Under the pieces are notes generated by a model. It saw nothing but the letters and a program-made list of their open reading frames with translations, did no database searches and was not told the origin of the DNA. From positions 1-43,082 of the forward strand of contig CALLKY010000112.1 of NCBI GenBank assembly GCA_938083135.1: 43,082 nucleotides of DNA, read 5' to 3'. This stretch comes from an uncultured Alphaproteobacteria bacterium. GTDB taxonomy: Bacteria; Pseudomonadota; Alphaproteobacteria; Bin95. The position numbers and the translations under genes are program-made. Numbering within the stretch: the first letter of the stretch is position 1; the number at the start of each line of letters is the position of its first letter. Positions 22,571 to 28,601 of the stretch are shown piece by piece.

Positions 22571-23044
22571 CTACTTCACGCGGACGGCCCGCCAACTCCA
22601 CCGATGGAATTGACCGTGCGGCCCTTTGCGATTGCTCTCGCCCTGCCCACTCATGGCATTCGGGCCGCTTAACCGGCCACGCCGCGCTGAACGACCGCCC
22701 AGTGCGGTTTCATACAGCAGCCACAGCTCACCGCCCTCCAGTGACCAGCGCATGGACTCCGCGAAAGCAGGACCGGCAATGCGCCCCTCTGTCTCAAACA
22801 GCACTTCCATCTCCGCGCCGTTATCATCCGTAAAGCGCCAGGACTGGCCTTCAAGCCCGCTCAATCCAAGCGGTGGCGGCCCGCCCGCATCCCTAAAGCC
22901 GGGTGCTGAGGCCAGCAGGCCAGTATTGGCTGGCGTCCGCGCTGCTTGCATCTGCGACGGTTGCGACGGCGGCAGCGATGGTGGCGGCGGGGCAAACGCC
23001 CGCGGCGGATCGGCTGGCTGCAGGGGCGGTGGTGGTGGTGCCAT
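22571..23044 (-). CDS. C-terminal part of the proline-rich peptidoglycan-binding protein, downstream of an in-frame TAG
   Basis: 157 codons in exactly the same frame as the gene ending at 23045. The first 30 residues continue its proline-rich linker (MAPPPPPLQPADPP...), and a compact tryptophan-rich beta domain follows (about 65-155: SWRFTDDNGAEMEVLF, SMRWSLEGGELWLLYE, HRWSWRAVRVK). It would lack a signal peptide if started at its own ATG, which sits directly after the stop codon. Most likely it is the C-terminal domain of one exported protein split by a nonsense change; re-initiation or readthrough is an alternative. The domain family is not recognised. Confidence 0.65.
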   Translation of the reverse strand: MAPPPPPLQPADPPRAFAPPPPSLPPSQPSQMQAARTPANTGLLASAPGFRDAGGPPPLGLSGLEGQSWRFTDDNGAEMEVLFETEGRIAGPAFAESMRWSLEGGELWLLYETALGGRSARRGRLSGPNAMSGQGESNRKGPHGQFHRWSWRAVRVK

Positions 23045-23944
23045 CTATAGTGGCGGCACCGCTTTTTGCTCTGGGCTCAGCGCAGGCGGTGCCTGGACTG
23101 TCATTGGCGGTAGCGGTGCTAAATCCATAGTAATCGGCGCGAGCGGTGGAGGCGGCGGCCTGCTGACGGGCTGTGGCAATGGACTTGGCGTCAACTGGCT
23201 TGGCGTAGGTACCGGGGCATCGCGCATGGCAGCCGGAGGTGGCGGTGGAGCAGGCGGTGCTACACTCAAACTAAGCCCTTGGGCAAGCGGCAATGACGGC
23301 TGTGGCAATGGCGGCGGTGGTGGCGCAAACCCGGCTTGGTCTGGAATGCGCGGCGCTGCAGCAGAAACGGGCGGCTGTTGAACCGGCAGCGGTGGCGGCG
23401 CTGCCTGTACCGGCGCGGCCTCACTGGATGTCGGCGCTGGCAGGGTAATCACGTTAAACCGGTCGGACACATCAGGCGTCGGCCAGGGTGTATCCTGTTG
23501 CAAGGGCGGCTGCAGGGATGGCGACAAGGGCGCGGGATATGCTGATGGCGCTGCCCGTGGCGGCGACGCGCTTGAAGCCCCGCTATAACGAGACCGGCGT
23601 GGCTCCACACGGACAGGAGCCGTGACAGATCGAAGCTCTGCCATCAGATCAGCAGAGATGGCACCCGTCGCGGGCAAGCCGGAATCTTGCTGGAACGCGC
23701 GAATGGCCGTTCGTGTCTGCCGCCCGGCGACGCCGTCTGCTCCGCCTGCATCATAGCCAAGCTGACCAAGCAGCTGCTGCGCCTCCCGAACCGTTGCCCG
23801 GCTGGCGGATTGCGCCTGATGCATATGTCCGGCGGTAAGGGCAGGCTGGGCAAACGGCACGGCGTTCGCCTCACGACCGCCCAATTGCGGCATGAGTACC
23901 AGCGCTGCAGACGCCATGAGTAAACATGCAGATAGTCTCGTCAT
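23045..23944 (-). CDS. Exported peptidoglycan-binding-domain protein with proline-rich linker, interrupted by TAG
   Basis: About 299 residues from the ATG at 23944, which overlaps the previous stop as ATGA. The N-terminus MTRLSACLLMASAALVLMPQ is a signal peptide. A PG_binding_1 domain follows (about residues 45-110: REAQQLLGQLGYDAGGADGV, TRTAIRAFQQDSGLP). The rest is a long proline/alanine-rich linker that would reach across the periplasm. The reading frame stops at TAG (23047-23045), yet the same frame continues as proline-rich coding sequence. It sits at the end of the exopolysaccharide export block and may anchor the machinery to the cell wall (inference). Confidence 0.75.
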   Translation of the reverse strand: MTRLSACLLMASAALVLMPQLGGREANAVPFAQPALTAGHMHQAQSASRATVREAQQLLGQLGYDAGGADGVAGRQTRTAIRAFQQDSGLPATGAISADLMAELRSVTAPVRVEPRRSRYSGASSASPPRAAPSAYPAPLSPSLQPPLQQDTPWPTPDVSDRFNVITLPAPTSSEAAPVQAAPPPLPVQQPPVSAAAPRIPDQAGFAPPPPPLPQPSLPLAQGLSLSVAPPAPPPPPAAMRDAPVPTPSQLTPSPLPQPVSRPPPPPLAPITMDLAPLPPMTVQAPPALSPEQKAVPPL

Positions 23945-24189
23945 TGCGGCGCCGCCCTTTGGCTGACGATGTTGTTCCATCGTGCGAGGTCCTCTGGCGC
24001 TGTTGCGACCAATGTGGCGATCCGGTCTGTCATGCCGCTGGCAAGTGCGAGGTCCGTCAATTGCTGCTGCATTGCTTTTCGGTCCCAATACCTGTCAGCA
24101 GATTTGAACCACATCCGCTGCGCCTCCGCCAGCAATAGCCCGCCGATGATAGCACAAGCGCTCGCTCCAATGTGCAGCACATGGCTCAC
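23941..24189 (-). CDS. Small single-span membrane protein of the export block
   Basis: About 82 residues from the GTG at 24189, five bases after the tyrosine-kinase stop. It has one hydrophobic helix (IGASACAIIGGLLLAEAQ) and a helical polar tail (YWDRKAMQQQLTDLALAS). The frame is open to 24273, but that would overlap the kinase gene by 80 nt. It couples by ATGA to the peptidoglycan-binding gene. Not a family I recognise; position suggests an accessory role in polysaccharide export. Confidence 0.55.
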   Translation of the reverse strand: MSHVLHIGASACAIIGGLLLAEAQRMWFKSADRYWDRKAMQQQLTDLALASGMTDRIATLVATAPEDLARWNNIVSQRAAPQ

Positions 24190-24193
24190 GCGC

Positions 24194-26527
24194 CTAGTTC
24201 CGATAATACTTGCTGGCAGCGCCAGAATAATAGCCGGAATCCCCATAGCCATAACGCGCATGGCGCCGAACATTCACACCGGATAGCACGACGCCGGCCA
24301 GCTTAGCGCTCGCTTCCCGCATCTGCTTCAAGCCGTTGGCCACGACCTCCCGCCGGGTTGACGCCCAGCGGACGACAAACACCACCCAGCGGACGACAAA
24401 CACCACGGCATCCACATTATGCGCCAAAGCCCGGGAATCAGACACGACCAGGACCGGGGCTGAATCAATCAGCACCAGATCATAATCCGCCTCCAAAGCA
24501 CGGAGCAGCTGCGCCATCTGATCAGATCCCAACATCTCTGGCGGACTAGCGACTTCGTGGCCAGCGGGCAGCAGATGCAGGCCAGATGGTTGATCAATCT
24601 GGATGGCTTCCGCAACGGCAAGCCCGTCACTCAACACATCCACGAGGCCCCGCGCCTTTGGTGAACTCAGCACCTGCGTGACGCGCGGGCGGCGCAGATC
24701 GGCGTCAATCAGCAGCACTTTGCGGCCACTCTTCGCCAACATTCGGCCCCATGCCATCGCTAGCGTGGTTTTGCCTTCCTTCGGCATGGATGAGGTGATC
24801 AACACAGATTTTGGTGGCGCATCAATGTTGGAGAGGCGCACGCCCGTATCCACGGACCTTAGCGCCTCAGCAAACGACGAGATGGGCTTATCCAGCACGT
24901 AATTCTCAGGCGTTGTCGTCAGCCTGAGGCGTTTGGAGAGCTGAGGCACGAGCGCCAGAACGCCAGCGCCAAGCTGCTGCTCAATCTCCTCACCGGACCG
25001 GTACCCACGATCTAACTGCTCCATGAGCAGCGCCAAAGCGATGCCGGCAAACAGGGCGAGCAGGCCCGCAATAGGCAGGATGATTCCCGGCTTTGGGAAT
25101 GTCGGTGCCGTTGGGATATCAGCACGGGCCAGGATGCGCGCGTCCGGGCGCTGCACATCAGCTTGTGATGACGTCTCGCTCGCACGGGTGATGAAGTGCT
25201 CAAACAACCGGCGCGCTGCCTCTGCTTCCCGCTCAAGGGCGCGCAGCTGCACTTCATCGGCACCCTGCCGGGCAGCCGTTTGTTCTAACTGGCGCACACT
25301 GGAAGTCAGCGAGCGCTGCCGGGCCTGAGCGACCGCGACTTCGTTTTCCAGTGAGGAAACAATTTTGGCGACTTCGCCCCGGATGCGGGTCTGGATATCC
25401 CTGAATTCAGCCCGCGCTGAAATCATGCGCGGGTGTTTTTCGCCGTATTCCTGGCTGAGTTCGGCGATCTTACGCTCGGCCTCAGTTTCCCGTCCGCGCA
25501 GGTCCACGATCAAGGGTGAGGCCAGCACTTCTATCGCGGACTCAGCCCCATTGCCGGACCCAGACGTCAACTGCTGAATCTGCCGAAGCCGCGCCTCCGC
25601 CTCTGCCTTCTGGGTCTGTGCCAGGACAAGCTGCGTGTTCAGCAGCGACAATTGCTGCGAGGCCACCGTGCCAACAGCCGTACCAACAAGGCCAGCACGC
25701 GCACGATAGGCTTCAATCGCCTGTTCCGCCTGCTGCACTTGCTGGCGGAGCTCGCCAACGCGCGCATCCAGATAGTCTTGCGCGCGATTGGTCGCCTGAA
25801 ATTTGCCCGCAAGTTGATCCGCCAGATACGTATCCGCCAAGGCGTTCACGACCTTCGCTGCAGTTGCAGGACGGGTCGAGACAAAGCGGATATTGATGGC
25901 CCGGCTTCGCCCAGCGCGGGCGACGGTCAGCTGTTCTTGGACCGCTTCAACGACGCGACTGTGCTGAATTTGCAGCAGCGCCTCCTCAGTCTGCGCCGGA
26001 GGGGGTGTACGGCCAAAGCGTTCGGCCAGGTTCAAATTCAAGCCGCCACCTTTTGGCCTTAGAGCTTGATTGAATTCAGGATCGTTCACCAAGTTCAGGC
26101 GATTGATCACACGACCAACAAGCACAGGCGAGCGGATAACTAGGATTTCGCTATTGACGGTATCATCATCGCCCTGAAGGCCCGATATCACCTCATTAAA
26201 ATCAACCACGTTGTTCTTGCGCTGATCGAGCATCACGGCAGAGGCTGCATCATAACGCGGCGTGATCTGGAAGACAGCGAACGCGGCAATCACAAGTCCT
26301 AAGATCGTCACCAGCAGGATCATCAGCCAGCGGCGTTTCAATGTCCGCCAAATCTCACCCATGCCAAGCGCCCCATTACCGCCGCCATAGCCGGGCCGGC
26401 GATAATCAGAGCGACCGTAATCAGGGCGGCCATAATCTGGACGCGCGAACTCAGGCTGGGCACGCGCAGGATTGGCACGGGCAGGCTGGGCGCCGTCCTC
26501 GGTCAAGGTGATGGGGTCCCCGTTCAT
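24194..26527 (-). CDS. Wzc/GumC-type polysaccharide co-polymerase and tyrosine autokinase
   Basis: 777 residues. A Tyr/Arg/Pro-rich N-terminus with DYGRPDYGRSDYRRPGYG-like repeats precedes the Wzz chain-length domain, bounded by TM1 (about 68-90) and TM2 (about 485-505). Between them lies a long periplasmic coiled coil. The cytoplasmic kinase has Walker A SSMPKEGKTT (about 577-586), Walker A' LLIDADLRRP (about 603-612) and Walker B LVLIDSAPV (about 680). The tail is tyrosine-rich (RYGYGDSGYYSG, KYYRN), as expected for autophosphorylation. It controls polysaccharide chain length and export together with the Wza-type protein. A 7-residue duplication lies at about 708-721. Confidence 0.93.
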   Translation of the reverse strand: MNGDPITLTEDGAQPARANPARAQPEFARPDYGRPDYGRSDYRRPGYGGGNGALGMGEIWRTLKRRWLMILLVTILGLVIAAFAVFQITPRYDAASAVMLDQRKNNVVDFNEVISGLQGDDDTVNSEILVIRSPVLVGRVINRLNLVNDPEFNQALRPKGGGLNLNLAERFGRTPPPAQTEEALLQIQHSRVVEAVQEQLTVARAGRSRAINIRFVSTRPATAAKVVNALADTYLADQLAGKFQATNRAQDYLDARVGELRQQVQQAEQAIEAYRARAGLVGTAVGTVASQQLSLLNTQLVLAQTQKAEAEARLRQIQQLTSGSGNGAESAIEVLASPLIVDLRGRETEAERKIAELSQEYGEKHPRMISARAEFRDIQTRIRGEVAKIVSSLENEVAVAQARQRSLTSSVRQLEQTAARQGADEVQLRALEREAEAARRLFEHFITRASETSSQADVQRPDARILARADIPTAPTFPKPGIILPIAGLLALFAGIALALLMEQLDRGYRSGEEIEQQLGAGVLALVPQLSKRLRLTTTPENYVLDKPISSFAEALRSVDTGVRLSNIDAPPKSVLITSSMPKEGKTTLAMAWGRMLAKSGRKVLLIDADLRRPRVTQVLSSPKARGLVDVLSDGLAVAEAIQIDQPSGLHLLPAGHEVASPPEMLGSDQMAQLLRALEADYDLVLIDSAPVLVVSDSRALAHNVDAVVFVVRWVVFVVRWASTRREVVANGLKQMREASAKLAGVVLSGVNVRRHARYGYGDSGYYSGAASKYYRN
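24364..24405. repeat. Perfect 21-bp tandem duplication inside the tyrosine-kinase gene
   Basis: CCCAGCGGACGACAAACACC plus A (21 bp) occurs at 24364-24384 and again, identically, at 24385-24405. On the coding strand it doubles VVFVVRW to VVFVVRWVVFVVRW. The copies have no mismatch, so the event is recent or kept identical. Confidence 0.9.
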
Positions 26528-26582: not shown

Positions 26583-27167
26583 TCAAAAATAGCGCTCCGG
26601 CACTTCGATGATATCACCGGGCAGCACGGCATCTGTTTGGCGCACTTGCCGCTTCTGTCGCGCTGCATCGCTTGCCCGTTGCACGACGATTTTCTTTTCT
26701 TTGGCCCGGTACGTGAATCCTCCCGCCAGCGCCACGGCCTGGATGACCGTCAACCCGTTCACATAAGGATATGAGCCAGGCTGTTTGACCTCCCCGATGA
26801 TGTAAAACGGGCGATAGTTCAGAACCTGCAGGCTGACACGCGGGTTTTTGAGGTAATCGGGCGTGAGGCGTTCACGAATAACCTTCTCCGCCTGCCCTGC
26901 CGTCATCCCCAGCACGACAATCTGGCCAATCAGTGGCAGGCTTATCTGACCAGCACCATCAACATCGAACGTGCCGGACAAGTCCGTGTGGCCAAATACC
27001 GTAACCTCAAGTTTATCGCCTGCGCCCAGTGTGTATTCCGCCTGCACCGCCTGTTGAACGGCCGCTTGCTGTGCTGCGGCTGGATGCATCTGCGCAAGCG
27101 TCAACAACGCCGTCGCCAAAGCAGCAGAGAGCAGCGTCAAACTCAAGCTTTTGCGCATCAGGCGCAT
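26583..27167 (-). CDS. Wza/GumB-type polysaccharide export protein
   Basis: 194 residues. A signal peptide (MRLMRKSLSLTLLSAALATA..., cleaved near AAAQ) is followed by the Poly_export domain with YTLGAGDKLEVTVFGHTDLS and the GQISLPLIGQI strand. One SLBB domain begins with RPFYIIGEVKQPGSYPYV and includes TVIQAVALAGGFT. It forms the periplasmic/outer-membrane exit channel for exopolysaccharide with the Wzc-type protein encoded 55 nt downstream. It is short, about half the size of E. coli Wza, as in GumB-like proteins. No lipobox Cys is visible. Confidence 0.93.
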   Translation of the reverse strand: MRLMRKSLSLTLLSAALATALLTLAQMHPAAAQQAAVQQAVQAEYTLGAGDKLEVTVFGHTDLSGTFDVDGAGQISLPLIGQIVVLGMTAGQAEKVIRERLTPDYLKNPRVSLQVLNYRPFYIIGEVKQPGSYPYVNGLTVIQAVALAGGFTYRAKEKKIVVQRASDAARQKRQVRQTDAVLPGDIIEVPERYF

Positions 27168-27241: not shown

Positions 27242-28558
27242 TCACGGATTGGCTGTAATTCTTAGCATGATGCGGTTGGAATCGTTGTCGATTCCTTGTC
27301 TGGCACCGTAAGAACGATTGCGTTCGTGCTCCAGTACCGCCTCAACCCGTGCATGACGGTTCATCAAGTAGCTGGCACCAAACTGGAAAAGCACGCCAAC
27401 ATCATCCCGCTGCACGCCTTCAAATTCAAACCAACGACCACTTAAATTGGCATGAAGCAGCAAGTTACGAAGCAGTTCGTGATCCGCGCCAATCTCCCCC
27501 CGGACTGCCTGACCGCCAGGGCTGCCGACCACAGTGCTTTCGAATACGCTCCGCTCAATCCCGCCATATGCGGTGGTGAGGCCCGTGATATTCGCCTGTG
27601 CTTCGGCACCGAAAATCAGTGCATCAATGCTGTCATCATTCAGCCGGGCCGCACCATTATCCTCATATCGTTGGGCGCGGTAGCCGATATAAACATTCCC
27701 AGTCGTGACGCCGCCAAAGTCTAACCGTGCCCCGACCCGGGCTTCCGCACCCACCGAATCCCTATCGAACCCGGCATCGTCCTGGGCATCGTGATAATCG
27801 CTGAAATTGCCCTCAAGCCGGGCATAGGCCGCATTCCCCGGCGTGAAGGCATAGGCACCTTCTGCACCAAGGCGCCCAATCGTGCGGTCGCGGTCATCAT
27901 TGTTGATCGCAGTTCGGGTGCCCGCCCGCCGCGCGTCTGCAAAATCCAACCTGTCTAGCCGAGCATCCGCTCCAAGTCTTACCCGGCCGCGCTCCCGTTC
28001 ACCGCCAACATTTGCTGACAGAATGTTGATTGCGACGGGGTTCTGGGAACCACCTTGGTCCGGGCTGGTGCGGCTTTCATATTGGCGCGCGAGACTGGCA
28101 CCGCCGGAGATATTGATGCCGCGCGCAACATCGTAGCGGCCCTTCGCAGCGAAGCGGAATTCTGCACGATCCTCCGCAGATTGCGTTGCATAGCTATGGG
28201 CTTTGGCTTCTGCCGTCAGCTCTATGCTGTGATTGGAGAATTCGGAATTAAGCCGCATTTTTGGTGCAAATGTTGCCACCAGGTCAGCTTTTTCATTGCT
28301 GGGTGAGCGGAACACATTGTCCTCATACCGCCCGCCGATCCCCAAACTTGGGTAGAATCTGAAGGAACCAACCCGGATGCCCAGTGGATCAAGTTCTGGC
28401 CGTGGCCGGGTCCGCACAGATTGGCCCGTGAATTCTCGGCGATCCCACTGAAACGGATCAGCCGATTGCGCAGCGGCTACCATAGGCATAGCCAGCGCCG
28501 CACCGATCAGCCCGAACAAGAGCGCGACAGCGCCGGATATATGGAAGAGTTTCCGCAT
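27242..28558 (-). CDS. Outer-membrane beta-barrel protein of the exopolysaccharide block
   Basis: About 438 residues from the ATG at 28558, chosen because it starts a good signal peptide (MRKLFHISGAVALLFGLIGA...AAAQS); the frame reaches a GTG at 28582. The mature part alternates short amphipathic strands such as VTTGNVYIGYRAQRYED and HARVEAVLEHERNRS, giving a barrel of perhaps 16-18 strands, and ends in the aromatic-poor IMLRITANP. It resembles the putative beta-barrel porin family (BBP2) that accompanies polysaccharide export genes. A role as exit or docking pore is inferred from neighbours. Confidence 0.8.
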   Translation of the reverse strand: MRKLFHISGAVALLFGLIGAALAMPMVAAAQSADPFQWDRREFTGQSVRTRPRPELDPLGIRVGSFRFYPSLGIGGRYEDNVFRSPSNEKADLVATFAPKMRLNSEFSNHSIELTAEAKAHSYATQSAEDRAEFRFAAKGRYDVARGINISGGASLARQYESRTSPDQGGSQNPVAINILSANVGGERERGRVRLGADARLDRLDFADARRAGTRTAINNDDRDRTIGRLGAEGAYAFTPGNAAYARLEGNFSDYHDAQDDAGFDRDSVGAEARVGARLDFGGVTTGNVYIGYRAQRYEDNGAARLNDDSIDALIFGAEAQANITGLTTAYGGIERSVFESTVVGSPGGQAVRGEIGADHELLRNLLLHANLSGRWFEFEGVQRDDVGVLFQFGASYLMNRHARVEAVLEHERNRSYGARQGIDNDSNRIMLRITANP

Positions 28559-28601
28559 TGCGGGCGAGTATACTCCGCACACCAGTGAATCTGTTAACCG
28601 G

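Follow-up and report, generated by a model that had tools for sequence, protein, structure and literature searches.

A perfect 21-bp in-frame tandem duplication doubles a predicted core β-strand in a Wzc-type kinase gene of an uncultured alphaproteobacterium

The closest described relatives of the protein studied here are the BY-kinases Wzc, Etk, VpsO and CapAB. It resembles them in carrying Wzz, GNVR and AAA_31 domains in one chain, in its Walker A, A' and B motifs, in its C-terminal tyrosine cluster and in the presence of an adjoining Wza-like gene, and both sequence and fold matches were obtained with 7nhr, 3cio, 6u1q and 4jlv. It differs from them in seven extra residues, which double one core strand and which are absent from the homologues examined.

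In Klebsiella, deletion or disruption of wzc abolishes the capsule (PMC11093053; PMC13076756). Point mutations in the kinase domain alter Wzc activity and raise mucoviscosity (PMC13076756), and kinase-domain mutations can give a polymer of very high molecular weight (PMC4334535). Both directions are thus possible in the light of this literature: the capsule is abolished when wzc is lost, or the output is changed when the kinase is altered. The Klebsiella and Acinetobacter alleles are comparable to the present one as recent kinase-domain mutations expected to change polysaccharide output (PMC13076756, PMC4334535). They are, however, mainly missense, frameshift or insertion-sequence alleles, whereas an in-frame duplication is described here; no published case of such a duplication in wzc was found in a literature search. 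In Streptococcus pneumoniae, spontaneous reversible duplications are known from the capsule genes cap3A, cap8E and tts (Waite et al. 2001, 2003, cited in PMC4243769). These are likewise short tandem duplications inside a polysaccharide gene, but they are reported to be reversible and to switch the capsule off, whereas in our case the frame is kept, the gene encodes a kinase and one allele is known.

The window analysed in this work is a stretch of DNA of 43,082 nucleotides from an uncultured alphaproteobacterium. The genes which concern the present analysis are the following, L008 being the locus of the orthologue assembled from the same genus.

22571–23944, minus strand: gene of a proline-rich peptidoglycan-binding protein, interrupted by a premature stop at 23045–23047
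23941–24189, minus strand: remnant, about 83 aa long, of the gene next downstream of the kinase, with a large internal deletion (about 245 aa in L008)
24194–26527, minus strand: Wzc-type polysaccharide co-polymerase/BY-kinase, intact ORF of 777 aa, with Pfam, NCBIfam and PDB sequence matches
26583–27167, minus strand: Wza-like polysaccharide export protein (Poly_export and SLBB), upstream gene of the operon
27242–28582, minus strand: BBP2_2 outer-membrane β-barrel protein, gene order the same in L008

Further upstream, beyond the BBP2_2 gene, CysNC-like and PAPS-reductase genes are found.

In the kinase chain, Wzz (PF02706), GNVR (PF13807) and AAA_31 (PF13614) all scored above the Pfam cut-off. 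Among the NCBIfam models, TIGR01007 (polysaccharide biosynthesis tyrosine autokinase) was above its cut-off and TIGR01005 slightly under. The nearest solved relatives, according to PDB sequence matches, were Wzc, Etk, VpsO, BceF and CapAB. The Walker A (KEGKTT), Walker A' (LLIDADLRRP) and Walker B (LVLIDSAP) motifs are all intact, the conserved alignment columns at these places reading TSS.P.EGK.T, L.D.DLRRP and V..D..P, respectively. The C-terminal tyrosine cluster, YGYGDSGYYSGAASKYYRN, is also intact and its YY pairs are invariant. Domains, motifs and fold matches thus bear out the initial annotation of the gene as a Wzc-type kinase. Judged from its sequence, it is the only gene of this type in the genome; a second Wzz-family protein above the curated cut-off was found nowhere else in the genome, and the single initiating sugar transferase is encoded elsewhere.

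The sequence CCCAGCGGACGACAAACACCA is present twice, head to tail, on the plus strand (24364–24384 and 24385–24405), and the two copies are 100% identical. TRF reported an array at 24364–24406 (period 21, 100% matches), whose score of 86 was the highest in the window, the runner-up reaching 72. Within this interval, one extra base matches beyond the two 21-bp units. In protein order, the two copies are as follows.

24386–24406, minus strand: repeat copy 1, residues 708–714, VVFVVRW
24365–24385, minus strand: repeat copy 2, residues 715–721, VVFVVRW, all 21 bases the same as in copy 1

VVFVVRW is thereby doubled at residues 708–721 of the 777-residue kinase. The direct sequence, the TRF array and the intact ORF all confirm the perfect in-frame duplication which had been claimed in this gene. 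As for its site, said to be just after Walker B, the doubled segment does lie downstream of this motif, but not immediately: it begins about 19 residues past the Walker B aspartate, from which it is separated by a helix.

In random sequence of the same composition, about 1.8e-8 exact period-21 repeats are expected per window. When a 1.07-Mb sample of the same genome was searched for exact tandem repeats with units of 10–100 bp, four non-low-complexity duplications were found, with units of 21, 18, 18 and 12 bp, of which that of the kinase is the longest. The units of all four are multiples of 3 inside open frames, which fits real events filtered by selection.

The ancestral state was examined in an alignment of 39 homologue rows, which comprise homologues of the same genus and family, 28 loci sampled from the class and sequences of several distant bacteria, with some redundancy (L003 and L008 represent one gene; L009, L010 and L011 are near-identical). 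All 39 rows carry one copy, with no insertion at the site, so that the two-copy state is derived and has been seen once so far. The case of homologues all carrying both copies, envisaged in the initial annotation, was thus checked and came out otherwise. As it stands in the assembly, the duplication is genuine, derived, peculiar to one lineage and ordinary in kind.

The same-genus orthologue (L003/L008), the sole one assembled, reads HVDAVVFVVRWGVTRQEV at this position, and its kinase domain is 64% identical to that of the window. Its single copy differs at 2 of 21 bases from the window copies, which are identical to each other. A close kinase homologue was present in only 4 of the 14 family genomes, and the family- and order-level searches yielded few orthologues. 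In the assembly of the closest relative, G003 (about 90–95% nucleotide identity over part of the operon), the kinase gene is missing, as it falls in the gap between contigs C415 and C90. The duplication could therefore predate the genome studied here. At the kinase-side end of contig C90 (L121, 7904–7930), we observed an apparent Nextera transposase adapter, AGATGTGTATAAGAGACAG, left untrimmed in the public assembly.

With zero differences in 21 bp, the age of the duplication is bounded at about 0.27 synonymous changes per site for each copy, or at 0.07 per site if all sites of the 21 bp were free. The proposal that the event is recent is weakly supported by these values, the identity of the copies limiting its age only loosely.

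The consequences for the protein were considered on AF2 models of the kinase domain. In the one-copy domain of L008 (pLDDT 79), the 7-mer forms the strand 164–170 (AVVFVVR), in agreement with the earlier suggestion that the doubled segment corresponds to a single core β-strand. In the two-copy domain of the window (pLDDT 80, pTM 0.82), the BY-kinase fold was kept and the strand order was unchanged. Copy 1 was modelled as the strand 163–169, and copy 2 was placed in a longer loop, WVVFVVRWASTR, which replaces WGVTR of L008 and has a pLDDT below 50 at 173–176; the next helix and strand are unaltered. When compared by Foldseek with the crystal and cryo-EM structures of BY-kinases (CapAB, Etk, Wzc and VpsO), both models gave TM values of about 0.7–0.8. 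The contention that an extra strand must disturb the fold was not upheld by the two-copy model, in which the fold is retained and the extra copy appears as a low-confidence loop. AF2 does not respond to destabilising insertions and provides no measure of stability, and disturbed folding of the modelled two-copy domain is possible. The choice of copy 1 as the strand probably follows the gap placement of the aligner; which of the two identical copies forms the strand cannot be read from the sequence.

The two genes that follow the kinase were also found to be damaged. From the kinase stop to the next peptidoglycan-binding gene, the distance is 738 bp in L008 versus 249 bp in the window, so that about 490 bp have been lost; G003 keeps a longer version of the post-kinase gene, cut by the contig end. 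In the proline-rich gene, an ATG is located directly after the premature stop, and the counterpart in G003 (L121) is one open frame of 382 codons. Few interrupted genes were found elsewhere in the genome sample: 2 of the 61 genes compared with G003, one of them being the proline-rich gene, and none of the 21 compared with G004. The occurrence of changes in three consecutive genes suggests relaxed selection on the export operon.

With moderate confidence, we interpret these observations as a recent spontaneous in-frame duplication which has probably left the kinase impaired or altered, in an exopolysaccharide locus that would be drifting toward loss. Most likely, a replication error, probably involving template switching, would have produced the 21-bp tandem duplication in the sole Wzc-type kinase gene. 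The terminal homology of the inferred one-copy sequence is only 1 bp and no notable hairpin is present, so that there is no indication of classical slippage between repeats that already existed. A DNA hairpin was also rejected as the cause of the duplication, folding at this place being no better than that of shuffled sequences (z −0.53).

In the protein, the Walker B strand is followed by its helix and then by the strand that would be doubled. Either of the identical copies could fill the place of this last strand, the other being extruded as a loop of seven residues, most likely in the stretch that links the strand to the helix after it. In this arrangement, the Walker motifs and the tyrosine cluster would survive, as would the P-loop fold. 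The likely effect would be a weakened or altered autokinase, through which the control of exopolysaccharide chain length and export could be changed or lost. Relaxed selection on the export operon in this lineage, where the two genes that follow are damaged as well, would have let the duplication persist.

An impaired or altered kinase is the reading which we favour on balance over a harmless loop, a selected tuning of function, an assembly artefact and a phase switch, it being understood that these readings overlap. It is favoured because the neighbouring genes are damaged; the fast evolution of the proline-rich downstream protein and the ATG placed right behind its stop count against it. Tajima counts for the kinase branch versus that of the orthologue (17 v 27, 26 v 23 and 17 v 26) gave no acceleration, so that decay, if any, can only have begun recently, and the kinase may have kept its full activity. 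The same counts, together with the preserved reading frame and a two-copy model that retains the fold and all motifs, would also agree with a second copy extruded as a surface loop from a normal kinase, the duplication then being without consequence. However, an extruded VVFVVRW would be very hydrophobic, no homologue in a wide sample of the class and beyond has an insertion at this site, and the adjoining genes are damaged; this explanation is considered doubtful, although it deserves to be kept in mind. The damaged neighbours also indicate loss and not tuning, and a selected change of function, in which the insertion would alter without abolishing the kinase and polymer length would shift, as with the selected wzc missense alleles of Klebsiella and Acinetobacter, appears unlikely. 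Its precedents are the kinase-domain wzc mutations altering activity that were repeatedly selected (PMC13076756) and the A. baumannii Walker-box and tyrosine mutants, which lead to polysaccharide of very high molecular weight (PMC4334535). A selected, possibly reversible tuning allele could also be imagined in which the identical strands would compete for one place in the sheet, giving two kinase registers and a changed exopolysaccharide length; we regard this as highly improbable.

An artefact would mean that a local repeat path was traversed twice by the assembler and that the true genome is single-copy, to which the draft state of the genome (163 contigs) and the presence of the duplication in one genome only would lend some weight. 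Nevertheless, the repeat is interior to a 43-kb contig and exactly in frame, as are the four sampled tandem duplications, all multiples of 3. Furthermore, current reads are long compared with 42 bp, and repeats are more often collapsed by assemblers than invented. An assembly artefact is thus less likely, and we hold it to be quite improbable. The initial annotation had also proposed a phase-variable switch, whereby the reversible gain or loss of the 21-bp copy would turn the kinase, and hence exopolysaccharide, down or up. The precise loss of one of two identical copies is conceivable in principle, and the reversible spontaneous duplications of S. pneumoniae capsule genes, cited in PMC4243769, represent a precedent. 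However, the 21-bp unit corresponds to seven codons and the frame stays open, two copies only imply a low expected slippage rate, the terminal homology in the inferred single-copy form is 1 bp, the duplication does not recur in the 39 homologue rows, the neighbouring lesions are of a non-reversible kind, and one allele only has been seen. The open frame makes a switch less likely without closing the idea, as the protein might be altered even by a copy that is in frame. With no change of frame and two copies only, the proposal was not supported, and such a switch is judged very unlikely.

The locus represents a clean natural case of a whole core β-strand duplicated in frame in a P-loop kinase, and it could be used to ask how a P-loop fold accommodates an additional identical strand. 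In all other respects, the mutation appears recent and ordinary, and the exopolysaccharide operon in which it lies is seemingly degrading in one lineage. Elsewhere in the window, a large protein with FG-GAP and RTX calcium-binding nonapeptide repeats is encoded at 500–2548 on the plus strand, with a 27-bp tandem array at 1765–1835.
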